From Planctomycetota bacterium (GTDB lineage Bacteria > Planctomycetota > Phycisphaerae > Phycisphaerales > SM1A02): a DNA stretch of 32,629 nucleotides. The number at the start of each line of letters is the position of its first letter. Within the stretch, counting starts at the first letter, position 1. A program made the position numbers and the translations under genes. The notes under the pieces were generated by a model. The model had not been told where the DNA came from. It ran no database searches and saw only the letters and a program-made list of their open reading frames with translations. Location of the stretch: positions 1 to 32,629 of the forward strand of contig QWPW01000036.1 in NCBI GenBank assembly GCA_003671025.1, written 5' to 3'. Below are positions 7,530 through 21,742 of the stretch, one piece after another.

Positions 7530-9020
7530 TTAGGCAGCGACCTCGCGCACCGACGCGACTTCGCTGAGGTCTTGCACGCGCCCAGTTCCCACGCGCAATT
7601 GCAGTTTGCGATTCTCATCCCAACTGATCAGCAAGGGCCCCTTCACCGAGTCGTTGAAGCGCGCAATTTGATTACCCACAGCGAGAACGGTTCCCGCATA
7701 AATCACGCGATCGACTTCGATGCGCAGCACGCGTTGCGTTCCTGCTTCGAGAAGCAGTCGCGCTCGATGCTGGGCCAACAATTGCAATCGTCGTTGAACT
7801 TCTGCGATTTCGTACGCGAGTTCGGTCACGCGTTCTTTGTCCGCAGCCGAAGCGCGATCGCCCAGAAGCCCGATCTCTTCTTCGCGTTCAATGAGCGGCG
7901 CCGACTCCTTCGCGAGCGTGGTGATCAACGCCGCGAGACGCGCAGCTTGGCCTAACTCAATCGGGCGCAATCCCGCGCGAATGGTGGTGGTGACGCCGCC
8001 TTCAGTGCCAATTGAAACTGCTTTGAGTTTGCCGCCGACGACCAGCGAACCACCGACGATGGATCCACGCGTCACGCACACATTGCCGCCCACGACAAAG
8101 TCACAACCCACGATTTCGCGGTCGATGTTCATGTCCGCGCGAATGCGTCCGCGCACACCGTTGACATGCGCGGCGGTCAAGCTGCCATCGACGATGAGAT
8201 GTCCCTTGCTGCGCCCCGCGACGCCGCGTTCACATACGCAATCGCCTCCGACGATGAGGTCTGCAGATTCCACCAAACCGCGCACCAGCACATCGCCGGT
8301 GGCACGCACAGTGAAATTGTCGCGCACACCATCGCTCACTTTGACGGTGCCGACGAAGTCGATGTTGCCCGTCGAATAATCGACACAGCCTTTGACTTCG
8401 AGTTCATCGAGCACCGCAATCTTCAGCCGCGCCAGCGAAAACACGCCGTCTTTGAGCGCGCGAATCGAACCATCCGCTTCCACTTGCACGCTTCCATCTG
8501 GCTGCAGCGCCAACTTGCGCCCGCGGCGCGCGGCGATGGATCGCCCGCACACGTCTTGGCCATCACAACCACCATCGGGAGGCACGAGCACTCCGAGCAC
8601 CGTTCCCGCGATAATTTTGACGCGCTTGATTCTGTTGTAGTGATCCACCGGTGTCGCGCTGTCCCGATTCTCCTGCGCACCCGAATCATCACTTTCGCAC
8701 GCTGCCCGTGCGCACGCGCGAAACTCGGGCATCCAGTCGACGCGCGCATCGCTGCCATCGACGGCCGGCTGCGCACTGGCGATCACGGCTTCGACCACAC
8801 CTTCGTCGCCCGCGGCGCGGGATGTGTGCCGCGCCGCGAGCAAGCGAATCGCCTCGTTGACCGCGCGATCAACGACGACTCCCCGTTCTCTTGCCAGACT
8901 CATGAGCGCAGCCTCAGTTCCGAGCTCAGGAGCCGCTTCAAACGGAAGTTCCATGATGGCCCGACGTCCATCGTCAACGATTCGCACAATCGGAAGTCGT
9001 TCGATGATGGGTTCGGACAT
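7530..9020 (-). CDS. FapA/DUF342 polymer-forming beta-helix protein
   Basis: This 496-residue protein belongs to the DUF342 (flagellar assembly protein A) family. Its middle shows the family order: an entry motif PDGGCDGQDVCGRSIAA, then VDYSTGNIDFVGTVKVSDGV, then repeated short strands of the type V-A-T-G-D-V-L-V-R-G-x-V (positions about 240-370) expected of a right-handed beta-helix. The N-terminal 150 residues are less conserved, and a helical coiled-coil-like segment with EREEEIGLLGDR lies near residue 400. The start at 9020 has a good Shine-Dalgarno (GAAGGGG) and is preferred to an upstream in-frame start at 9077. It is third in a leftward cheX-cheY-fapA operon. Its function outside flagellated bacteria is not established, and the operon link to CheX/CheY suggests a role in motility, surface sensing or polar organisation. 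Confidence 0.8.
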   Translation of the reverse strand: MSEPIIERLPIVRIVDDGRRAIMELPFEAAPELGTEAALMSLARERGVVVDRAVNEAIRLLAARHTSRAAGDEGVVEAVIASAQPAVDGSDARVDWMPEFRACARAACESDDSGAQENRDSATPVDHYNRIKRVKIIAGTVLGVLVPPDGGCDGQDVCGRSIAARRGRKLALQPDGSVQVEADGSIRALKDGVFSLARLKIAVLDELEVKGCVDYSTGNIDFVGTVKVSDGVRDNFTVRATGDVLVRGLVESADLIVGGDCVCERGVAGRSKGHLIVDGSLTAAHVNGVRGRIRADMNIDREIVGCDFVVGGNVCVTRGSIVGGSLVVGGKLKAVSIGTEGGVTTTIRAGLRPIELGQAARLAALITTLAKESAPLIEREEEIGLLGDRASAADKERVTELAYEIAEVQRRLQLLAQHRARLLLEAGTQRVLRIEVDRVIYAGTVLAVGNQIARFNDSVKGPLLISWDENRKLQLRVGTGRVQDLSEVASVREVAA

Positions 9021-9088
9021 TGGTTCCCCTTCGATTGATTCAATGTGTGCGCTGCTGTCCGCGCGACACGCACACAAATTCGTGTGGC

Positions 9089-9157
9089 GGTCACGCCGCT
9101 TTGGCGCGCGACGTTACGCCGCTTTCGCGCGCGACGTTACGCAGCTTTTGTGCGCGA
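9089..9157 (-). repeat. Three tandem 23-bp copies of the cheY 3' end
   Basis: Units at 9135-9157, 9112-9134 and 9089-9111 each match the neighbouring unit at 20 of 23 bases. Read leftward, the first encodes the last residues of CheY (SRTKAA and the TAA stop). The next two would read SRAKAA-stop again, with TAA and then TGA, so the gene tail including the stop has been duplicated twice downstream. The 23-bp period is not a multiple of three. Confidence 0.8.
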
Positions 9158-9508
9158 CAACGTCTCGTTGATGCGCTGTGAGAGCACATCGGGCGTGAAC
9201 GGTTTGACCACATAGTTGTTGACGCCGGCTTTGATGGCTTCGACCACGCGCGACTTTTCGCTCTCGGTCGTCACCATGATCACTGGGCTTTTTCCGCCCA
9301 ATGCGCGGTAGTTTCGGACAAATGTGACGCCGTCCATGTTGGGCATGTTCCAGTCAACCAGCAGAAGCTCGGGCGCAAACGCGCTCACCTTAGAGAGCGC
9401 ATCCTGACCGTCGCAGGCTTCCTCAATTTCTTTGTATCCAAGTTGAATCAGAATGTTGCGCTGGATGGAACGCATGGTTTTCGAATCGTCGACAAGCATG
9501 ACTTTCAT
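9137..9508 (-). CDS. cheY: CheY-like single-domain response regulator
   Basis: The 123-residue receiver domain has no output domain. The acidic pocket is Asp7/Asp8, the phospho-acceptor is Asp52 (LLLVDWNMPNMDG), with Thr80 (MVTTESE) and Lys102 (YVVKPF) in the standard positions. It fits the CheY branch of cytosolic regulators that bind a flagellar switch or other target when phosphorylated. A GAGGA Shine-Dalgarno precedes the ATG. It starts 15 bp after the cheX stop, so the two are co-translated. The DNA encoding its C-terminus is tandemly repeated downstream. No histidine kinase lies in the window, so the phosphodonor is unknown. Confidence 0.9.
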   Translation of the reverse strand: MKVMLVDDSKTMRSIQRNILIQLGYKEIEEACDGQDALSKVSAFAPELLLVDWNMPNMDGVTFVRNYRALGGKSPVIMVTTESEKSRVVEAIKAGVNNYVVKPFTPDVLSQRINETLSRTKAA

Positions 9509-9523
9509 TGGTGGGTCCTCGGT

Positions 9524-10030
9524 TTACGCGGCTTTCGCAGCAGATGTTGATGTGGGAACAGCAGCAGACTTCGCGAGCTTCATCGCGACTTCAACCGAGA
9601 ACTGTCCGGCGGAACACGCGAAGGGAATGGTGATGCATGTGGCATCACTCGGCTGCGCCACTCGGTGACCTCGACCGAGCACGACCGATGGGCAAGAAAT
9701 CGAAACATTGGTGCACTCAAACTTTGCCTTCGCGGCACCAGAGATCATGTTCACCAGCTCGCCTACCGCATCGGCAAAGTCGGGTGAGGATGGATCCATG
9801 TCGGCACCCGTGAACGCGCGAATGACATTGCACGCAGTCGCGGTGGGAAACGAAAGCACCACCATTCCTTGCACGTCACCAGACATGCCGATGATGCCGC
9901 TCACCTCGCTTTCAAAGAGAGGAACGGTGCTACAGGAATACGGTTTGCCCGCAGTCACGGTGAGCGAGAGCATGGTCGAGAAGACCTGATGCGTGCTCGC
10001 GACGAAAGCTGTAATTGATTGCGCGTCCAT
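9524..10030 (-). CDS. cheX: CheX-type chemotaxis phosphatase
   Basis: A 168-residue CheC/CheX-family protein. The phosphatase motif ExxN is present as E91-L-V-N94 in DAVGELVNMISGAAK, in the single copy expected of CheX. Around it are the family strands SGIIGMSGDVQGMVVLSF and the ISCPSVVLGRGHRV segment. CheX dimers remove phosphate from CheY-P, and the gene sits 15 bp upstream of cheY. The C-terminal 20 residues are a low-complexity Ala/Ser/Thr tail. A strong GGGAGG Shine-Dalgarno decides the start. Confidence 0.85.
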   Translation of the reverse strand: MDAQSITAFVASTHQVFSTMLSLTVTAGKPYSCSTVPLFESEVSGIIGMSGDVQGMVVLSFPTATACNVIRAFTGADMDPSSPDFADAVGELVNMISGAAKAKFECTNVSISCPSVVLGRGHRVAQPSDATCITIPFACSAGQFSVEVAMKLAKSAAVPTSTSAAKAA

Positions 10031-14103: not shown

Positions 14104-14853
14104 ATGAAATCCAACAACCTGTCTATCCAGCCGTCTATCAACCGTTGTGTCGTGAGTGCTGTTGTTGTTCCGTCTCTGTTCCTGATCGCGCTTGCTACCA
14201 CGAGTTCAGTCGCGCTTTGCGGCCCCGACTGGGATGAGGGAGCGCACGGCGACGCGGGCTCGACCGCGAGCACTGCGCAAGTCATCACCACTGCGGGCAC
14301 GGTCAACACGGTGCGCGGAAGTCTCACTGCGAATCTTCTCGGTGGCGACTATCAAGACATGTACGTGATCTATGTTGCATCGCCGACGAGCTTCAGCGTG
14401 AGCACACTCACCGCCGATGGTGGAAGCGCTACGTTCAACCCCATGCTGTACGCGTTTCGCGTCGAAGGCTTCGGCGACACCGCGCACGCGTTTGCGATGC
14501 TGGGCAACAACATCGCGATGGCGGGAGTTGTCGGCGCGCGACTGGGACCAATTGCCAATGACAATTCCGGCGTTCGTCTCACTGAGGCGGGGTACTACGC
14601 GATCGCCATTAGTGGCTTCTCGTCGCGTCCCACCAATGCGTTCGGCGAGTCGTTGTTTGGATCGAACATTTTCGGTGCGGGAAATCTCGTCGGACCCGCG
14701 GATGGATTGAACAACCTTGGACTTGCAGGCTGGGACTCCGATGGCCAGACCGGCGAGTATCTGTTGCATTTGTCGGGAATTACCGGGGTTCCTGCTCCTG
14801 GCGCGATCGCGCTCTTGGGGCTCGCAGGATTGATCAGCCGCCGCCGCCGCTAA
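14104..14853 (+). CDS. Secreted PEP-CTERM-type sorted protein
   Basis: A 249-residue exported protein. A signal peptide covers about residues 1-38 (basic start, then VVSAVVVPSLFLIALATTSSVALC). The body is a beta-rich domain with no family recognised (for example YQDMYVIYVASPTSFSVSTL). The C-terminus is VPAPGAIALLGLAGLISR followed by three more Arg: a Pro motif, a hydrophobic helix and a basic cluster, the variant of the PEP-CTERM sorting signal typical of Phycisphaerae. Such proteins are handed to an exosortase-type system and released to the surface or outside; no exosortase lies in the window. Start 14104 gives a proper signal peptide. The last 20 bp overlap the convergent kinase gene. Confidence 0.75.
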   Translation: MKSNNLSIQPSINRCVVSAVVVPSLFLIALATTSSVALCGPDWDEGAHGDAGSTASTAQVITTAGTVNTVRGSLTANLLGGDYQDMYVIYVASPTSFSVSTLTADGGSATFNPMLYAFRVEGFGDTAHAFAMLGNNIAMAGVVGARLGPIANDNSGVRLTEAGYYAIAISGFSSRPTNAFGESLFGSNIFGAGNLVGPADGLNNLGLAGWDSDGQTGEYLLHLSGITGVPAPGAIALLGLAGLISRRRR

Positions 14854-17155
14854 GACGAAGTCGCGCGACCATGCGCTCAACTTCGACGACGGTCGCCGCA
14901 TCTCCACCCTTGCGTTTGCGCAGAATGTCTAACGCTTGGGTGGCATGTTCGAGCGCAGCTTGACTGCGCGCGAGCGTCTCTTCGACCATCGCGCAGTTGT
15001 ACAAACTGCGTCCGATGCGATAGTCGTCGTGTGCGAGGATGGGCACAATGGTGGCCAGTGCTGCTTCGAATTCGGTGAGCGCGCGCGTGCTTTCGCCGCG
15101 CGCGAGATAGACGAACGCACGACCGTTGCGAATCGCCGCGAGTTCCGTCTCGCTGACGTCGCTCTGATTTTCCGCTCGGCTCCACGCATCATCAAACAGC
15201 GCGAGCGCTTCATCGAGTTTTCCTTGGCGACGCAAGCAACTCGCAAGATGCCGCTCCGTGAGCAACGTCAATCGATCGTCGGCACCGAGGTCGGCAATAC
15301 GAATCGCCAGCGCCTCGCGATAGGCGAACTCAGCGTCCTCGGTACGACGCTCGAGGAGGCGCAGTCGACCGATGCTGTGCAAACTCTCGGCGACTTCCAC
15401 CGCGGTGGCCTCGCCTCTTGAAGCGAGTGCGCGGCGCTCGAGCAGTGCCAGTTCGAGCGCGCGAGTCGCCAGCGGAACATCCTCAAATCCGAGATGAACC
15501 AAGCCAATGGTGTCGAGCACGCCCGCGAGGACACGAGGCTCCGTCCGTAACTCCTCCACCGCGTTCTGCTCGATCAATTCGAGAAACTGATCTACCGAAA
15601 TATCGGCCGATCCACGGCTGGTTTCGGGGTTCACGCTGCCCACCGCGTCGCGAAAACTTTGCAATGTGCGCTCGCTGCGAACGCGCTCGCGCTGAGCGTG
15701 TGCGTAGGCAAAGGCCAACGCGATTCCCGAGGCGACGATGGTGAAGAGCAGCGCAGACGCGGCGCTCGAAGCGATCCAGTGCCGGCGCACATTCTTGCGC
15801 AACACATAGGTGATGCTGTCGGCGCGCGCGATGATGGGACGCCCATCGAGAAAGCGCGTGAGATCTTCGGCCAGTGCATCGGCCGTGTCGTAGCGACGCG
15901 CGGGGTCCGGCGCGAGCAAGCGAAGCACGATGATGTCGATGTCGTGGTCGATCTTGCGATCAACATTGCGATCAACATCGCGATCAACATTGCGATCAAC
16001 ATCGCGGCGCACACGACTGGGACTCGGTGGCGCGTGTGTGGTTTTTTGCGCGACCAACTCTGCGATCGAACGCGCGCCTTCGAATGGCCGGCGTTGCGTG
16101 AGGCATTCGTAAAACACCACGCCGAGGGCGTACAGATCACAGCGCGAATCAATGGCGCTCGGATCGCCGCCGAGTTGCTCGGGCGCAGCGTAGGCAAACG
16201 TGCCGAGGAACTCGCCTGCGATCGACGCGTTGTCCGCGGCGCCGCCCGCTTCGCTCTGTTCCGTGCTGCGCGCGAGTCCGAAATCGAGAATGCGCGCGAC
16301 ACCATCCTTGTCCACGAGAATGTTGCCCGGCTTGAGGTCGCGATGAATCACGCCGCGACGATGCGCATACGCGACGGCATCGGCGATCTGATGAAAGAGC
16401 GCGATCATCGCACGGGTGGTCAGCGTGTTGTTCGCGATGAAAGTGTCGAGCCGCTCACCCTCGACATACTCCATGGCAAACCACGGCTCATTCCCGCGTG
16501 AAATGCCACTTTCATAGAGTGTGACAATCGAGCGATGGCGCAATCGTGCGACCACTTCGATCTCGCGCTCGAAGCGTTGCCGTTGTCGCTCGGTGGCGAA
16601 TCGTCCCGAGAGCAACATCTTCACTGCGCACGTGCGCCGCGTGGCCAACTGCTCCGCGAGATACACCGCGCCTTGACCGCCGCGCTGCAACTCCGCGCCG
16701 AGGCGATAGCCCTGAATCGGTTGCTCGAGAGTTTGCTCGAATGAATCGTGCGACGCTGGATTGCTCAGACGTGCCGACGCGCTTCGCTGCGCATGCGTGC
16801 CTGCATCGCCGCCGTCAGCCGTGTCGTCTGTCTTCATGAGGCGACGCGTGTCGCTCGCACGCATCGTCGCGTCAATCGCCTGGTGCTCTGGGCGAACCTC
16901 TCCGAACACTTTGAATTCGCCTAAAAACGCGTTGTCGGCGCACAGACGCTCCACGATGGCGCGACACACTAGGCACTGCTGCACATGCTCCTTGACCCCT
17001 TCAGGAACTGGCACTTCGTTGTCCACGATTGCGAGCGCGGCGAGTTCGAGCGCGTCGCGACTGCACCAACCGCAGCCAGCACCTCCACCGGTGCATGAAG
17101 CCATTGCTTCGATGCGAGTCTCGTCAGGTTGATGATCACCTTGTCCACCACTCAC
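14834..17155 (-). CDS. Membrane Ser/Thr protein kinase with N-terminal zinc motif and TPR sensor
   Basis: A 773-residue protein starting at GTG 17155, which overlaps the TGA of the sigma gene (GTGA); ATG 17104 is the alternative. Residues 57-64 are HVQQCLVC, the HxxxCxxC motif of zinc-binding anti-sigma factors, with further Cys at 21, 28 and 31. The kinase spans about 150-440: a glycine loop LQRGGQGAVYLA in which the first Gly is Gln, Lys179, catalytic HRDLKPGN (Asp273), DFG Asp291, and APEQ. A four-unit DVDR/NVDR repeat (385-400) interrupts the C-lobe. A membrane helix covers 461-483. The C-terminal 280 residues are TPR-like helical pairs, probably extracytoplasmic. The role is probably phosphorylating the neighbouring sigma factor or its targets in response to an envelope signal; this is inferred from the pairing. 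Confidence 0.85.
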   Translation of the reverse strand: MSGGQGDHQPDETRIEAMASCTGGGAGCGWCSRDALELAALAIVDNEVPVPEGVKEHVQQCLVCRAIVERLCADNAFLGEFKVFGEVRPEHQAIDATMRASDTRRLMKTDDTADGGDAGTHAQRSASARLSNPASHDSFEQTLEQPIQGYRLGAELQRGGQGAVYLAEQLATRRTCAVKMLLSGRFATERQRQRFEREIEVVARLRHRSIVTLYESGISRGNEPWFAMEYVEGERLDTFIANNTLTTRAMIALFHQIADAVAYAHRRGVIHRDLKPGNILVDKDGVARILDFGLARSTEQSEAGGAADNASIAGEFLGTFAYAAPEQLGGDPSAIDSRCDLYALGVVFYECLTQRRPFEGARSIAELVAQKTTHAPPSPSRVRRDVDRNVDRDVDRNVDRKIDHDIDIIVLRLLAPDPARRYDTADALAEDLTRFLDGRPIIARADSITYVLRKNVRRHWIASSAASALLFTIVASGIALAFAYAHAQRERVRSERTLQSFRDAVGSVNPETSRGSADISVDQFLELIEQNAVEELRTEPRVLAGVLDTIGLVHLGFEDVPLATRALELALLERRALASRGEATAVEVAESLHSIGRLRLLERRTEDAEFAYREALAIRIADLGADDRLTLLTERHLASCLRRQGKLDEALALFDDAWSRAENQSDVSETELAAIRNGRAFVYLARGESTRALTEFEAALATIVPILAHDDYRIGRSLYNCAMVEETLARSQAALEHATQALDILRKRKGGDAATVVEVERMVARLRLSGGGG
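15956..16003 (-). repeat. Four tandem 12-bp units inside the kinase gene
   Basis: GCGATCAACATT and GCGATCAACATC alternate twice each, giving a 24-bp higher-order period. On the coding strand they encode DVDR-NVDR-DVDR-NVDR. All units are in frame, so gain or loss of copies would change the kinase C-lobe length without a frameshift. Confidence 0.9.
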
Positions 17156-17799
17156 GCGTCGATTCCAGCGGAGGGACGCGGTCCCTTCGCATCCCAATCG
17201 CCGGGCGTTTCTTCGTACTCGCTCTCGAGACGAATGACGATTTCGCGAAGCTTGGCGGCAACACGACTCTTGGCGAGATAGACATCGTGCGCGGACATTT
17301 CCAATTCACTGGCCACCGCCGCAGTCGAAAGTCCGTGATAGACCAACATCTCAAATGCTCTGACTGTTTTAGGATCGGTCTTCGATCGCGTGCGCAATTC
17401 CTCGAGCGCTTCTTGCAACAACGCTAATCGTCGCTGTGTGTCGTAGGCTTGATCGACGGATTTCTCGTCGTCGAGATTTACGATGCCGCTCTCGCCGCGT
17501 TCGATGCGTGCCGTGCCCGTGCGTCGACGCGCATCCAACATGCGATAGCGCGCAATGGTCACCAACCATGCGCCGAGTCGGCCGCGGGTGCGATCGTATT
17601 TTCCATCGCGATATTCTTCGACGAAGCGCACGATGGTCTCTTGCGCGATCTCCATCGCTTCGCTTTCGCGCACGCCACAATTGCGAACAAAGCCCACGAG
17701 AATAGGCCGATAGCGACGATCGAATGCTTCCCATGCGGCGGCGTTGCGAGGGTCAAACAACCCGATCAGAAGCGCCGTCGTGGTGCGGTCGAGATTCAT
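17152..17799 (-). CDS. ECF-type RNA polymerase sigma factor
   Basis: A 215-residue sigma-70 family protein with regions 2 and 4 only. Region 2 is residues about 18-92 (AWEAFDRRYRPILVGFVRN, then EIAQETIVRFVEEYRDGKYD, then GAWLVTIARYRMLDARRR). Region 4 is about 130-195 (AFEMLVYHGLSTAAVASELEMSAHDVYLAKSRVAAKLRE), with a helix-turn-helix. The C-terminal 20 residues are Pro/Gly-rich. It begins 44 bp after the hscA stop and its stop overlaps the kinase start. ECF factors paired with Ser/Thr kinases are typical of Planctomycetes, where the kinase replaces or supplements a classical anti-sigma factor. A TAGCAT box lies seven bases upstream of the ATG, so it may also have its own leaderless transcript. 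Confidence 0.9.
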   Translation of the reverse strand: MNLDRTTTALLIGLFDPRNAAAWEAFDRRYRPILVGFVRNCGVRESEAMEIAQETIVRFVEEYRDGKYDRTRGRLGAWLVTIARYRMLDARRRTGTARIERGESGIVNLDDEKSVDQAYDTQRRLALLQEALEELRTRSKTDPKTVRAFEMLVYHGLSTAAVASELEMSAHDVYLAKSRVAAKLREIVIRLESEYEETPGDWDAKGPRPSAGIDA

Positions 17800-17806
17800 A
17801 AATCGA

Positions 17807-17812
17807 ATGCTA
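17807..17812 (-). promoter_or_regulatory. TANNNT box before the ECF sigma gene
   Basis: TAGCAT, then seven bases, then ATG at 17799, with no Shine-Dalgarno. It lies in the 44-bp gap after hscA and would allow sigma-kinase expression apart from hscA. Confidence 0.35.
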
Positions 17813-17843
17813 CCACGGACCTTGCGGCGCCCGCACCCGTCGC

Positions 17844-19733
17844 TCAGCGCCGCAGCGTCTGCGCGATCGCAACTTCATGGACATGCATCGACAAGCGATC
17901 GAGCGCCTCTTTCGCGCGGTGCAGCGCGTCCGCATCCACCGCGCGAGGATTGATCGCGGCCGCGTTGCAACCGGCGCGCACCGCTTCCATCGCGGCCTCG
18001 AGTTCGCTCACGTAACTCGATTCGAGCAATGTGCGCACGCGTTCGAGCGCTTCGCCGATCCACTTGAGATCAAGCTCTGCGTGGACGCGGAGATCAATCA
18101 CGCGATGAACCGTCATGTCCGCGCGGGCGTGTTCGACACTCTCGCGCTCCATGCGCTCAACTTCACTGCGCGTCAATCCGTAACTGGGAATGATCTGAAT
18201 CGAAGCTTCTGTTCCGCTGCGACGCTCGCGCGCGGTGACGCACAGCACCGCATTTTGATCGACGAGAAACGACACATCAATCTGCGGGATTCCTGCGGGC
18301 ATGGGCGGAATCCCCCGTAAATCAAAGACTCCCAACGAACGACAGTCCACCGCGAGTTCGCGTTCGCCTTGCACGACATGGATGCGCACGCTTGTCGATC
18401 CATCTTTTGAGGTGGAGAAATTTTCATGCGCACGCGCGGGAATCGGACTGTTGCGCATCACCAACTTGGCCACCGCGCCGCCGAGCGTTTCGATGCCCAA
18501 CGAGAGCGGCATGACATCAAGCAACAACAGATCGCGACGCGAACCCGCCACAATCGCGGCTTGCACGGCGGCACCGAGCGCCACCACTCGATCAGGATCA
18601 AGCGCGGTGTAGGCGTCGCGACCAAAGAACTCCGCAACGGCAGAACGCACACACGCCAGTCGAGTGGAGCCACCGACTAACACGACGCGATCAATCTCGG
18701 CGAGCGATGTGCTCGCGTCCTTGAGCGCGCGCGCGCACAACTCAATCGTGCGTGCAACCAACGGCGCGCAACACGCATCGAGTTCGCCCTGCGTGAGCGA
18801 AAACTCGCGATTTCCCGCGGCGAGAGCAACATTCACGCTGGTATGCGTCACCGTGGCCAGTGCGACTTTGGATTGTTCCGCCGCCTCCACCAGCGTGGCG
18901 CGATCAGCAGAAGTTTGCGCGAGCGTGGCATCGCTCGCCATCCATAACCCGGCGATGGCGCGATCGATGTCATCTCCGCCAAGCGCAGTGTCACCCGCCG
19001 TCGCGAGCACATGAAAGCAATCGGCGCCGGTTCCCACTTGTTCGGAAGGAACGATGTCGAGCACGGTGACGTCAAATGTTCCACCACCGAGGTCGTACAC
19101 CGCGATGCGTTCGGCGCGACGCGACTGACCTAGTCCATAGGCGAGCGCCGCCGCGGTCGGTTCGTTGACCACACGCACCGCGTCGAGTCCTGCCAAGCGC
19201 GCCGCATCGCGTGTCGCTTGACGTTGCGCATCATCGAAGTACGCAGGCACGGTGATGACCGCGCGCGTGACGGTGGTGCCCAGATCCGCTTGCGCCATCG
19301 CGCGCAACTCACGCAACACTTCGGCGGCAACTTCTTGCGGCGTGATGATCTTCTCGCCGACGACAAAGGCTGCGATGGCGCGCGGTCCTTCTGTGAGCGG
19401 TACTGCGAAACTCTGGGCAAACACGGCAGTTTCCGCGGCAGAACGCCCCATCAACCGCTTGGCGCTGGCGATGGTTTCGAGCGGATGTTGTGCGCGTTGC
19501 GCGCGCGGGCGCTCGCCGACGGTGATCACGCCGTCCGCTGCAAAGCGCACCACCGAGGGAACGATCGCGCCCAGCGCTCCACCACCAAGAATGCGCGGAC
19601 CAGAATCAAAGCAGTACGCGACCAATGAGTTGGTCGTGCCCAAGTCGATACCCACGATGGGGTCAAGGATCTGCTCGCGGAGTTCGCGGTTAGGACGCTG
19701 ATTTGGACTGGACTGGTTCTCGCGCTGCGACAT
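17844..19733 (-). CDS. hscA: Hsp70-family chaperone HscA
   Basis: A 629-residue Hsp70 protein. ATPase motifs: VGIDLGTTNSLVA near residue 27, AYFDDAQRQATRDAARLAGL, VVNEPTAAALAYG, YDLGGGTFDVTVL, and LVGGSTRLACVR. The substrate domain follows the HscA pattern more closely than DnaK: FSTSKDGSTSVRIHVVQGER, then DCRSLGVFDLRGIPPMPAG, then ASIQIIPSYGLTRSEVERM. HscA helps deliver Fe-S clusters from the scaffold IscU together with HscB, but no isc gene or hscB lies here. The start at 19733 was chosen because the conserved N-terminus follows at a normal distance and a TACTAT box lies nine bases upstream; the in-frame start at 19796 is unsupported. It leads a leftward run of hscA, sigma and kinase genes. 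Confidence 0.85.
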   Translation of the reverse strand: MSQRENQSSPNQRPNRELREQILDPIVGIDLGTTNSLVAYCFDSGPRILGGGALGAIVPSVVRFAADGVITVGERPRAQRAQHPLETIASAKRLMGRSAAETAVFAQSFAVPLTEGPRAIAAFVVGEKIITPQEVAAEVLRELRAMAQADLGTTVTRAVITVPAYFDDAQRQATRDAARLAGLDAVRVVNEPTAAALAYGLGQSRRAERIAVYDLGGGTFDVTVLDIVPSEQVGTGADCFHVLATAGDTALGGDDIDRAIAGLWMASDATLAQTSADRATLVEAAEQSKVALATVTHTSVNVALAAGNREFSLTQGELDACCAPLVARTIELCARALKDASTSLAEIDRVVLVGGSTRLACVRSAVAEFFGRDAYTALDPDRVVALGAAVQAAIVAGSRRDLLLLDVMPLSLGIETLGGAVAKLVMRNSPIPARAHENFSTSKDGSTSVRIHVVQGERELAVDCRSLGVFDLRGIPPMPAGIPQIDVSFLVDQNAVLCVTARERRSGTEASIQIIPSYGLTRSEVERMERESVEHARADMTVHRVIDLRVHAELDLKWIGEALERVRTLLESSYVSELEAAMEAVRAGCNAAAINPRAVDADALHRAKEALDRLSMHVHEVAIAQTLRR

Positions 19734-19742
19734 CGGGTCGCG

Positions 19743-19772
19743 ATAGTACGGGAGCATCGGCGATGAGGTCAC
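19743..19772 (-). promoter_or_regulatory. Candidate promoter of hscA
   Basis: On the minus strand GTGACC (19772-19767) and TACTAT (19748-19743) are 18 bases apart, each 4 of 6 to consensus. Nine bases separate the -10 from the ATG, suggesting a leaderless or near-leaderless mRNA. It lies just downstream of a strong terminator, as expected for a new transcript. Confidence 0.4.
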
Positions 19773-19783
19773 CCGCCAAACAA

Positions 19784-19810
19784 GCGCGCCCCGCATTGAG
19801 CGGGGCGCGC
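19784..19810 (-). terminator. Intrinsic terminator-like hairpin upstream of hscA
   Basis: GCGCGCCCCGC and GCGGGGCGCGC form a perfect 11-bp stem with the loop ATTGA. On the minus strand it is followed by TTGTTTGG, a weak U-tract, so it probably ends leftward transcripts from the small ORF at 20454. Rightward from here, 19811-19971 holds one more inverted repeat (19907-19931, 11-bp stem with a mismatch, 3-base loop) and no gene. Confidence 0.7.
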
Positions 19811-20061: not shown

Positions 20062-20454
20062 TTAAGCCTCTTCGCGCGCTTCGCAATTCGACACGCGCCC
20101 AGCACAGAGGGCAGCCAGGATGTTGCGCAGAGTGTCGGGATCCGTCTCCGCCGCGCGAAGGTCGTCAATGTGGATCGGATCTCTGTGCGCCGCATGCGCG
20201 GACGACTGCTCCAAGTGCGCGATACTCCGCAGTAATCGAAGGCGAGCCCTCTGCTTGCTCTGTGTTGCCTCCGCGAGCACTTGCGCAAAATGCCCGCCAA
20301 TCGCAGGCTCGACGCGGAGCGTGAGTGTTGGTCGAGTGCGATCCGCGGCAACCAGTTCGGAATCGATGTTTGCCACTTCGAGCGAACCATCGGCCGAAGG
20401 TGCGGCGTCAACTGGGCTGTGCGTTAGGGCGAAAGTGGTTGGTGTTTGGGTCAT
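20062..20454 (-). CDS. Small unknown protein; frame continues past an in-frame TAA
   Basis: A 130-residue protein with no recognised family. It is rich in Ala, Asp, Glu and Arg, predicted mostly helical after residue 50 (RLRLLRSIAHLEQSSAHAAH, DPDTLRNILAALC), with no signal peptide. A GGAG Shine-Dalgarno lies nine bases before the ATG. The ORF ends AREEA-TAA. Hand translation in the same frame continues AAEASTDAEIVALLEQDGQE and so on to a TGA at 19972-19974, with the same acidic, helical character. The TAA could be a GAA-to-TAA nonsense change, an assembly error or a readthrough site; the full frame would be 160 residues. Inverted repeats lie directly upstream of the Shine-Dalgarno. Other frames here are Arg-rich shadows. 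Confidence 0.5.
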   Translation of the reverse strand: MTQTPTTFALTHSPVDAAPSADGSLEVANIDSELVAADRTRPTLTLRVEPAIGGHFAQVLAEATQSKQRARLRLLRSIAHLEQSSAHAAHRDPIHIDDLRAAETDPDTLRNILAALCAGRVSNCEAREEA

Positions 20455-20473
20455 GAATGAGACTCCAATCAGG

Positions 20474-20616
20474 AACCGTCAGAAACCAGTCTTGGGTGGC
20501 ACTGGTCGAAGCGTCGTCTTCGAGAGAAGAGTGGGTGACGCTTGCTTGGTGTTCTGGGCAAACTGCCCGATGCACCTCTTGACGGTTATCAAGTTCTTCT
20601 CGCTGAACGATCAGCG
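20474..20616. ncRNA. Candidate structured RNA: four-way junction plus hairpin
   Basis: AACCGTCA (20474-20481) pairs with TGACGGTT (20580-20587), closing a junction with three arms. Arm 1: ACCAGT/ACTGGT (20485-20490, 20501-20506). Arm 2: AAGCGTC/GACGCTT (20509-20515, 20537-20543) topped by TCTTC/GAAGA with loop GAGA. Arm 3: GGTG/CACC (20548-20551, 20573-20576) and GGGC/GCCC (20556-20559, 20565-20568). Linkers are only 2-4 bases. A fifth stem, CGCTGA-ACGA-TCAGCG, follows at 20601-20616. The GAGA loop is a GNRA tetraloop only on the plus strand. If transcribed leftward instead, the element would sit 8 bases 5' of the Shine-Dalgarno of the gene starting at 20454, a riboswitch-like place. No known RNA family was recognised. 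Confidence 0.4.
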
Positions 20617-20644
20617 ATTCGTGTTATTCATTAGGGAGAACTCA

Positions 20645-21112
20645 CCATCTTCAATGTCCTTTCAAAAAAAATCTCATGCGCAAGATGGATTCGCATTTCG
20701 GGCGCATCGGCCGAAGCTCCACCTGCTCCCAACACCGCCTGCGTAGGCAAAAGGGAAGCAGCTGGGGATGTTTCCAATGGAAAAGCGCCCGTGCAGAGGC
20801 AACGCACGGGCACTCGGAGAGTTTCGAAGTTCTGAACTCGCGCACCTTCGAACGCGAGATGCGACGGCGCACGCTTGGTTGACGGACGGGAGTCCTCGGC
20901 CGGCCAGCCAAAGACCCCCGTCAGTCGGCGTGGCATTCACGTCTGCGTCCTTGCAGTGCGAATCCGCGCCCCGGGTTGCGGTCCATCGCAACACGCGCAC
21001 GCCTTTCCTCCGCGCGACACCACTCGTAAGAGCCAGTCCCGCGCCGGAGGTTGTTCGGTCGGAGTCGCGTTCCTTGCGACTCGTGCGGAGCGTCATGCAT
21101 TCCGCAGAGAAA
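20645..21112. other. Gene-free stretch dense in inverted repeats, possible ncRNA
   Basis: No reading frame here looks like protein. Visible stems: CCATCTT/AAGATGG (20645-20651, 20682-20688) and ATGCGC/GCGCAT (20676-20681, 20702-20707), which together would make a pseudoknot; GCCCGTGC/GCACGGGC (20787-20794, 20804-20811); a 10-bp stem with one mismatch (20885-20894, 20913-20922); GTGCG/CGCAC enclosing GTTGCG/CGCAAC (20956-21000); a long hairpin at 21007-21050 with an inner CTC-GTAA-GAG cap (GNRA on the plus strand); GAGTCGC/GCGACTC (21062-21082); and TGCGGA/TCCGCA (21084-21106). An A8 run at 20664-20671 is a T8 tract on the minus strand after the ATGCGC/GCGCAT stem, so a leftward terminator there is possible. 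21113-21247 holds nothing clear. Confidence 0.35.
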
Positions 21113-21247
21113 GAATCCATCGCCGCGCGTCCCTCTTTCACTGAAACGCCATGATTTCTCGGGATGTGACGCGCGTGCATGACAACGGGGTCTTCACCGC
21201 CGATTGGCCTGCGCGTTGGGGGGTGCGAGTTTCAGTACGGCGCCGAC

Positions 21248-21742
21248 TCAACGCGTGCGCGGACCAGCGTTGGGTTGCGCGTCAAGCACCGCATCGAATT
21301 GGCGCATCGAAATCTTGCGACACCACTGCAAGAGCGGCGTCAACCCAGGATCGCCGCCGCGCACATCAAACTCGTAGTGCTTGCCGTAGGTGGCAATGTT
21401 CAGTTTGTTGTGATCGCCCGTTTCCCCGACGCTCGCCCCACGCGACGCAAACTCGGTGGCGCGCACGAGCGACTCGAACTGTTGCAAGTCTTCGCTCGAG
21501 AGAGGCGTATCAAATGTCGTCGCGCGAATGGTCGCGTTCATGCCGCCGCCAGAATGAAACTCACCATCGGTCGTCACGTGGAAGTACGAAGTCTTGTCGC
21601 GCGCTTCGTTGCTCCAGAAGTAAGTCAGCTCAAGCCCACTGGTGCGATCGACTCGCGTTGAAATCGTTGCGCATGCGCCGAGCACGCACGAGAACGCGGC
21701 AGTGAGCAACAGCGGCGCGACCAATGAACGCGCGCGATTCAC
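21248..21742 (-). CDS. Predicted lipoprotein of unknown function
   Basis: A 164-residue protein. The N-terminus is a lipoprotein signal: MNRAR, a hydrophobic run, then a lipobox VLGAC with Cys at residue 24. The mature part is a small alpha/beta domain (YFHVTTDGEFHSGGG, then LSSEDLQQFESLVRATEF, then FDVRGGDPGLTPLLQWCRKI). No family was recognised. Its ATG overlaps the stop of the upstream lipoprotein gene (ATGA), so the two are translationally coupled. The order of a DG-containing strand, helix and second strand is similar in the partner, suggesting distant paralogues. Confidence 0.7.
   Translation of the reverse strand: MNRARSLVAPLLLTAAFSCVLGACATISTRVDRTSGLELTYFWSNEARDKTSYFHVTTDGEFHSGGGMNATIRATTFDTPLSSEDLQQFESLVRATEFASRGASVGETGDHNKLNIATYGKHYEFDVRGGDPGLTPLLQWCRKISMRQFDAVLDAQPNAGPRTR

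Follow-up and report, generated by a model that had tools for sequence, protein, structure and literature searches.

The CsrB and CsrC RNAs of enterobacteria (RF00018 and RF00084) carry CsrA-type sites in their hairpin loops. They are similar in length to the RNA described here, and CsrB has far more sites than the four that are conserved in it. Our RNA differs from both in giving no match to their covariance models. In Pseudomonas, RsmX, RsmY, and RsmZ combine several A(N)GGAX stem-loops with a rho-independent terminator, and four of these stem-loops are present in the 127-nt RsmZ of P. fluorescens (PMC4005645). The high-affinity Csr/Rsm site is the hexaloop ANGGAX, in which N and X can vary, closed directly by a stem (PMC4005645). 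RsmV and RsmW are GacA independent, so control of the GacA/UvrY type is not universal (PMC7366521).

Sponge RNAs and the protein FliW have been described as mutually exclusive restraints on CsrA (PMC7366521). FliW is strongly anticorrelated with BarA-UvrY, the driver of sponge RNAs, and the Planctomycetes are listed among the groups that may use FliW (PMC4682653). The FliW-CsrA systems of Bacillus and Campylobacter are described as having no antagonist small RNAs (PMC4894983, PMC13407953, PMC7366521). According to a 2020 review, joint action of FliW and a small RNA in any species was still to be determined (PMC7652899). GGA-containing, putative CsrB/C-like RNAs have been proposed in Geobacter sulfurreducens, a FliW-bearing bacterium (PMC11934962), and a 2026 paper states that none of these has been characterized (PMC13407953). 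The idea of such RNAs is already in print; among the literature matches listed (titles and the starts of abstracts, with most subscription papers and preprints outside reach), we found neither a characterized example nor a planctomycete Csr small RNA. Here, we describe a conserved RNA, probably of this kind, in a planctomycete.

Results

The window, that is, the whole 32,629-nt stretch of DNA analyzed, contains a gap at 20455-21247 flanked by two minus-strand open reading frames, 21248-21742 (164 amino acids, named lip164) and 20062-20454 (130 amino acids). Pfam had no match to the latter, and the 13 relatives searched had none with an E value below 0.001. On the minus strand, the gap encodes a conserved structured RNA that occupies only about 21139-20777 (~365 nt) (Table 1). 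Its 5' end is approximate and corresponds to a conserved GAAAG; its 3' end is directly past the U-run of the terminator. From 5' to 3', the layout is H1, H2, a variable spacer, H3, H4, usually H5, and the terminator. In L005, L009, and L011, an insertion splits H5, which was not recognized in L004 and L014. The extra sequence in the first three loci amounts to ~200 nt within and after H5 and is partly repetitive in L011.

Table 1. Positions in the window of the RNA and its parts.
Feature	Position	Strand	Remarks
Whole RNA, inferred	20777..21139	minus	conserved blocks in 14 genus loci
Hairpin H1	21084..21106	minus	ANGGA loop in 12/13 aligned sequences; the exception is the window's own copy (AUGAC)
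Hairpin H2	21062..21082	minus	7-bp stem, loop AAGGAAC; ANGGA in 12/13 aligned sequences
Long hairpin of variable spacer	21007..21050	minus	sequence not conserved among relatives
Hairpin H3	20975..20992	minus	hexaloop AUGGAC; ANGGA in 12/12 aligned sequences
Hairpin H4	20927..20970 (inner part 20943-20956)	minus	hexaloop AAGGAC; ANGGA in 11/12 aligned sequences
Long hairpin H5	20881..20926	minus	23-nt arms, 78% complementary in the window
GAAACUCUCCGAG	20813..20825	minus	identical in 14/14 genus loci; CUCUCCG common to the sister genus
Terminator hairpin	20781..20814	minus	11-12 bp, 9-nt loop GUUGCCUCU, then U-run

A sequence-only reading of this DNA had proposed that the entire gap might encode an undescribed structured RNA. 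The RNA is present, on the minus strand and at ~365 nt instead of 793; the ANGGA loops that recur in it and its terminator, which together are decisive, had been missed. Three of the structures drawn in that reading are real once read on the minus strand: the stem at 20787-20811 is the terminator hairpin, that at 20885-20922 is H5, and the two adjacent hairpins at 21062-21106 are H2 and H1. The GTAA-capped hairpin of the spacer is also a hairpin on the minus strand, and its sequence is the one that relatives do not keep. An apparent pseudoknot at 20645-20707 was rejected: it lies past the terminator, outside the RNA, and is not conserved. Since the RNA that is conserved and covaries is encoded on the opposite strand, the plus-strand GNRA loops are irrelevant. 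We rejected an RNA on the plus strand because conservation, terminator, and ANGGA loops are all on the minus strand.

Folding against shuffled controls, which the same reading had proposed, placed the energy of the 793-nt gap below that of 20 of 20 shuffles on either strand (z of -2.8 for plus and -4.2 for minus). Past the terminator, at 20455-20770, folding was modest (z of -2.2 and -2.1 on the two strands), and a DNA search found no matches in relatives to this part with two exceptions: a 31-nt match (20693-20723) to a different contig of G007, and the G013 match, whose end reaches 20759. For the 14 RNAs of the genus (40 shuffles each), z of the RNA strand ranged from -1.9 to -7.3 and was more negative than that of the opposite strand in 12; the opposite strand was likewise below its shuffles in most loci. 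Promoter scans gave no convincing sigma-70 promoter for the RNA. A generic terminator scan of the region was not above chance, with 2 found versus 1.3 in shuffles, and no promoter passed.

The absence of a coding frame, also claimed from the sequence alone, was borne out. Searching the gap's reading frames against 13 relatives with tblastn returned short pieces (the best shown inside the RNA were 16 to 45 amino acids) scattered over both strands and several frames, which is what DNA conservation alone would give; a conserved protein frame, which the sequence-only reading had counted against itself, was not found in these relatives. The H2-H3 distances of 12 sequences, counted from the alignments, leave all three possible remainders on division by 3. 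A coding region was rejected on these two grounds. The failure to match a tmRNA or RNase P consensus by eye also held up. Gene-finding detected no tRNA or tmRNA in 20455-21247 and no tmRNA in the window, and RNase P RNA was found elsewhere in the genome; both candidates were rejected. We also rejected 6S RNA, whose model had no match here or in the genome; as this model detects only 5 of 14 control genomes, a negative outcome carries little weight. The Rfam search that had been proposed gave no match at the gathering score in the window gap or in 13 relatives, and known Rfam families were rejected. At E values up to 5, 20300-21400 yielded four subthreshold matches, to microRNA and lncRNA models and to the Pseudomonas small RNA P6; CsrB, CsrC, and RsmX/Y/Z were not among the four. 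A plasmid search with the region gave no match.

We scored the named structures for covariation on MAFFT alignments against 500 shuffles. L009, which is near identical to L005, was omitted from the H1/H2 and H3/H4 alignments (A2 and A3), and L014 was omitted from the latter (A3), with which its H3/H4 did not align. Covariation among homologues, another check suggested earlier, was found in both pairs of hairpins. For H3/H4 (12 sequences), double changes occurred in 13 of 22 pairs and amounted to 33 cells, versus 12.4 in shuffles, with 0 of 500 shuffles reaching 33. For H1/H2 (13 sequences), they occurred in 10 of 16 pairs and amounted to 25 cells, versus 9.6 in shuffles, again reached by 0 of 500. 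The fraction of cells paired was 86.4% for H3/H4 and 85.4% for H1/H2, values biased toward the drawn structures because these were derived from the same sequences; controls in which either structure was slid gave at most 55%. H1/H2 was weaker when further pair types were counted, a measure that 47 of 500 shuffles reached. RNAalifold recovered most of the same H1-H4 pairs. In these alignments, H1 to H4 covary strongly.

The loops of these hairpins are nearly invariant. A-N-GGA was kept at 47 of the 50 aligned loop sites of H1 to H4, with N being A in 15, U in 15, C in 11, and G in 6. The exceptions are H1 of the window, L014 at H2, and L008 at H4, whose ACGGA is one column off. Under a strict rule for ANGGA hairpins (6- to 8-nt loop on a stem with 4 or more pairs, 3 or more of them G-C), we counted 2 to 4 per RNA and 39 in the 14 RNAs, versus shuffle means of 0.06 to 0.20; the counts were reached by 0 of 200 shuffles in eight RNAs and by 1 to 4 of 200 in the other six. 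All 14 opposite strands together had a single strict hairpin. Across both strands of the 32.6-kb window, the only 380-nt stretches with three strict hairpins were those covering this RNA. As predicted sites, the H1 to H4 loops match the published CsrA/RsmE consensus; H3 and H4 of the window fit the high-affinity form, and H2 has a 7-nt loop (PMC4005645).

The core of the DNA match within the genus is, on the minus strand, GAAACUCUCCGAG-[hairpin]-UUU. The UGCCUC loop of the terminator is common to the genus and its sister genus, and the stem differs. When the terminator stems of both genera were aligned (18 sequences), 97.7% of cells were paired, and there were 19 double-change cells versus 5.3 in shuffles (0 of 500 reached this). 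Only 4 of 12 pairs contributed double changes, a number that 53 of 500 shuffles reached, further pair types did not exceed those of shuffles (471 of 500 reached them), and the double changes for the most part separate one genus from the other. Conservation in the RNA is highest at CUCUCC and at the terminator loop UGCCUC (window 20781-20825, L086-L089, L169, L170, L180, and L194).

Matches to the RNA in a DNA search of 61 genomes were found in 14, all of them among the 16 genomes of the window's own genus. The other two, with completeness of 78% and 80%, also yielded no match to the nearby gene p254. In the 14 loci, the conserved blocks span 364 to 589 nt between lip164 and the terminator, with variable spacers, and the gene order p254-lip164-RNA is kept in 13 genus relatives. 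The presence of the RNA in this genus is firm. Two of the records that carry the locus, L051 and L054, are titled Candidatus Kuenenia stuttgartiensis, and these titles look wrong.

Four genomes of the sister genus, g17, have p254 and a relative of lip164. Directly after the latter, on the opposite strand, stands ACUCUCCG-GGGAGCCYGUGC-ACUGCCUCA-GCAC...CUCCC-UUUU, with the same CUCUCCG and UGCCUC loop. ANGGA hairpins precede this terminator, for example, CCGCC-AUGGAC-GGCGG and CCGUC-ACGGAU-GGCGG. The RNA is at the same locus as in the window's genus but inverted, convergent with the lip164-like gene. With the rule relaxed slightly, to 2 or more G-C, the four RNAs have 2, 4, 2, and 1 ANGGA hairpins, reached by 2, 0, 1, and 44 of 300 shuffles, and the other strand has 0. 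Their folding z values are -4.6, -2.3, -2.4, and -0.3, with the RNA strand better than the opposite strand in two of four; one RNA thus combines a single hairpin, equaled by 44 of 300 shuffles, with an ordinary z of -0.3. The H1/H2 model matched two of the four loci at the expected position and on the expected strand (E values of 0.0019 and 0.0057), and the H3/H4 model gave no significant placement of the g17 RNAs. The RNA is well supported in this genus. That terminator and ANGGA hairpins are inverted together indicates an independent gene and favors the strand assigned to it.

Searches farther afield gave fewer convincing loci. With stricter filters, the H3/H4 model had 13 matches in 181 genomes of the family, all in the genus, and missed G004, G010, and G011. 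The exact pattern CTCTCCG...TGCCTC...TTT was present in 27 of the 400 genomes searched in the order. These comprised 12 of the 15 genus genomes, all 4 of g17, and 11 others, a number to be set against the 9 genomes that the reversed pattern hit. The terminator model matched 97 of the 400 at E values up to 0.5, including 13 of the 15 genus genomes (6.5e-12 or better) and all four of g17. We trust its matches in these 13 and 4 genomes and, probably, in G114, where an inverted match (7.4e-6) lies ~0.9 kb from p254 and has two hexaloop ANGGA hairpins shortly before it. The 12 other loci inspected, from G377 (8.4e-6, about as good a score as that of G114) to 0.0053, had no upstream ANGGA hairpin; the single ANGGA entry of L152 falls inside its terminator. 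Presence of the RNA in a third genus is likely. Among 40 p254 loci from 37 other genera, CTCTCC...TGCCTC...TTT occurred in 3 (g3, g43, and g56), each inverted and 516 to 628 nt after p254, and broadening the terminator pattern gave one further match, in g2, on the same strand and without ANGGA hairpins. ANGGA hairpins were not clearly enriched beside p254 in these genera (0.37 per kb inverted and 0.24 on the same strand, versus 0.28 in the background; 39 loci, one of the 40 being too short). The case for the RNA beyond the two genera is weak. On the strand opposite p254, ANGGA hairpins cluster near the end of that gene in L184 (G021, g7; five hairpins within 360 nt) and L197 (G028, g14; three within 160 nt). 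These clusters, which are without a matching terminator motif, are possible distant versions of the RNA.

All 16 genus genomes encode CsrA (PF02599), 15 of them in two copies, and it was found in 60 of the 61 genomes searched. Genera without a visible RNA also encode it, and with CsrA this widespread its presence or absence cannot test a partnership with the RNA. FliW was found in all 16 genus genomes. We read the CsrA residues in one copy, the main CsrA of the window genome: it starts MLVLSRQ, has VHRKEVY, and has L4, R6, V42, R44, E46, and N55. Residues L4, R6, V42, R44, and E46 are important for RNA binding. This assignment follows, in part, PMC11934962. The protein matches solved CsrA/RsmE proteins across its first 44 to 64 residues and has a C-terminal extension; in other bacteria, N55 and the C-terminal extension make the contact with FliW (PMC13407953). 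The fliW gene is just upstream, with the C-terminal part of its frame preceding csrA (PF02623 at C37:3092-3445). The arrangement resembles the FliW-CsrA pair of Bacillus and Campylobacter in having fliW beside csrA and a CsrA with the C-terminal extension and N55. A second, divergent CsrA-family protein is encoded in 15 of the 16 genus genomes (G000:C1:30032-30196, L064, and equivalents), and in the window genome its gene stands apart from the fliW-csrA pair.

Discussion

We consider it probable that this ~365-nt RNA acts in trans by binding several CsrA dimers and keeping CsrA off its target mRNAs, as CsrB and RsmZ do. As a separate gene, it would be transcribed from the minus strand up to the intrinsic terminator. 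Several CsrA dimers may bind through the ANGGA hairpin loops, and the resulting sequestration would lower free CsrA and allow more translation of CsrA-repressed mRNAs. FliW may act on CsrA at a separate site, and RNA and FliW together would then control CsrA. The window's own H1, which is without GGA, counts against a CsrA sponge. By its sequence features, the RNA is best classed as one that would work like CsrB and RsmZ and as a member of no Rfam Csr/Rsm family. It shares with the RNAs of Pseudomonas the A(N)GGAX stem-loops and terminator and differs from RsmZ in being about three times longer (PMC4005645). It differs from all three in that its host also has FliW, in its conserved CUCUCC and UGCCUC, and in having no Rfam match at threshold. 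The RNAs of G. sulfurreducens are software predictions, whereas ours covaries and is conserved across species. If it is indeed a sponge, its conservation in genomes that without exception encode FliW would provide a concrete case for testing joint control and would carry this class of RNA well outside the Gammaproteobacteria.

A CsrA-trapping role leaves CUCUCC and UGCCUC unexplained; neither is a CsrA site. The RNA might have a dual function, acting as a sponge with FliW in the same cell and pairing through these two motifs with Shine-Dalgarno regions, coupled to the capture and release of CsrA. We hold this doubtful, and the pairing itself is a guess. Such pairing could also be the main function, with CUCUCC and the UGCCUC loop directed at GGAGAG and GAGGCA and with the ANGGA hairpins loading CsrA only as a chaperone or stabilizer. 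The two motifs are the most conserved in the RNA, are single stranded in our model, persist in both genera though the intervening stem has changed, and recur at the same place in three more genera and in G114. By itself, a base-pairing small RNA does not account for four A-N-GGA loops with a free N, and we regard it as unlikely.

Sequestration of CsrA also explains the loops better than binding of another protein or of ribosomes. The divergent second CsrA-like protein could be such a partner, being present in 15 of 16 genus genomes, and ANGGA resembles the Shine-Dalgarno core, which would suit mimicry of that sequence to engage ribosomes. An ANGGAX hexaloop directly on a stem is, however, the documented mode of CsrA/RsmE binding (PMC4005645), and a ribosome mimic would need neither a loop nor an A before N. 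This alternative is quite improbable. A cis-acting leader or attenuator of a neighboring gene is hardly tenable. In the window's genus, the RNA is on the same strand as the upstream, lipoprotein-like lip164, and relatives have a same-strand open frame downstream, with sigma-70 domains in the one protein tested. In the sister genus, however, it is inverted and convergent with the lipoprotein-like gene, an inversion that largely refutes a leader and for which we rejected it. The RNA also closes with a terminator, and a promoter-like TTG-N16-TA, read by eye, stands between it and the downstream frame in several genus relatives. Chance structure is the least credible explanation and, as regards a conserved RNA, is already refuted: stems form easily in GC-rich intergenic DNA and the opposite strand is also below shuffles in most loci, but double-change cells exceed all shuffles and slides, the loop letters are near invariant, the terminator is conserved, and the locus shows synteny and inversion as a unit.

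Some features of the neighborhood were also noted. In the window, at 14834-19796 and 7530-10030, genes for a kinase-TPR protein, a sigma factor, and HSP70 stand in a row, as a set that recurs in several genus relatives, and genes for FapA and CheX are further on. The sigma-type frame seen downstream of the RNA in relatives was not recognized in the window; its sigma-70 domains were found by Pfam in the one frame run. A pattern search found a hairpin, GAGC-ANGGAACC-GCUC, in the upstream or start region of this frame in 9 of 13 relatives (L051:3865-3886 and equivalents); it is also present in three of the four sister-genus loci (L086, L087, and L089). If the hairpin is translated, its codon switches between His and Gln with N, as though the RNA motif set the constraint. 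It is a candidate CsrA target beside the putative sponge.
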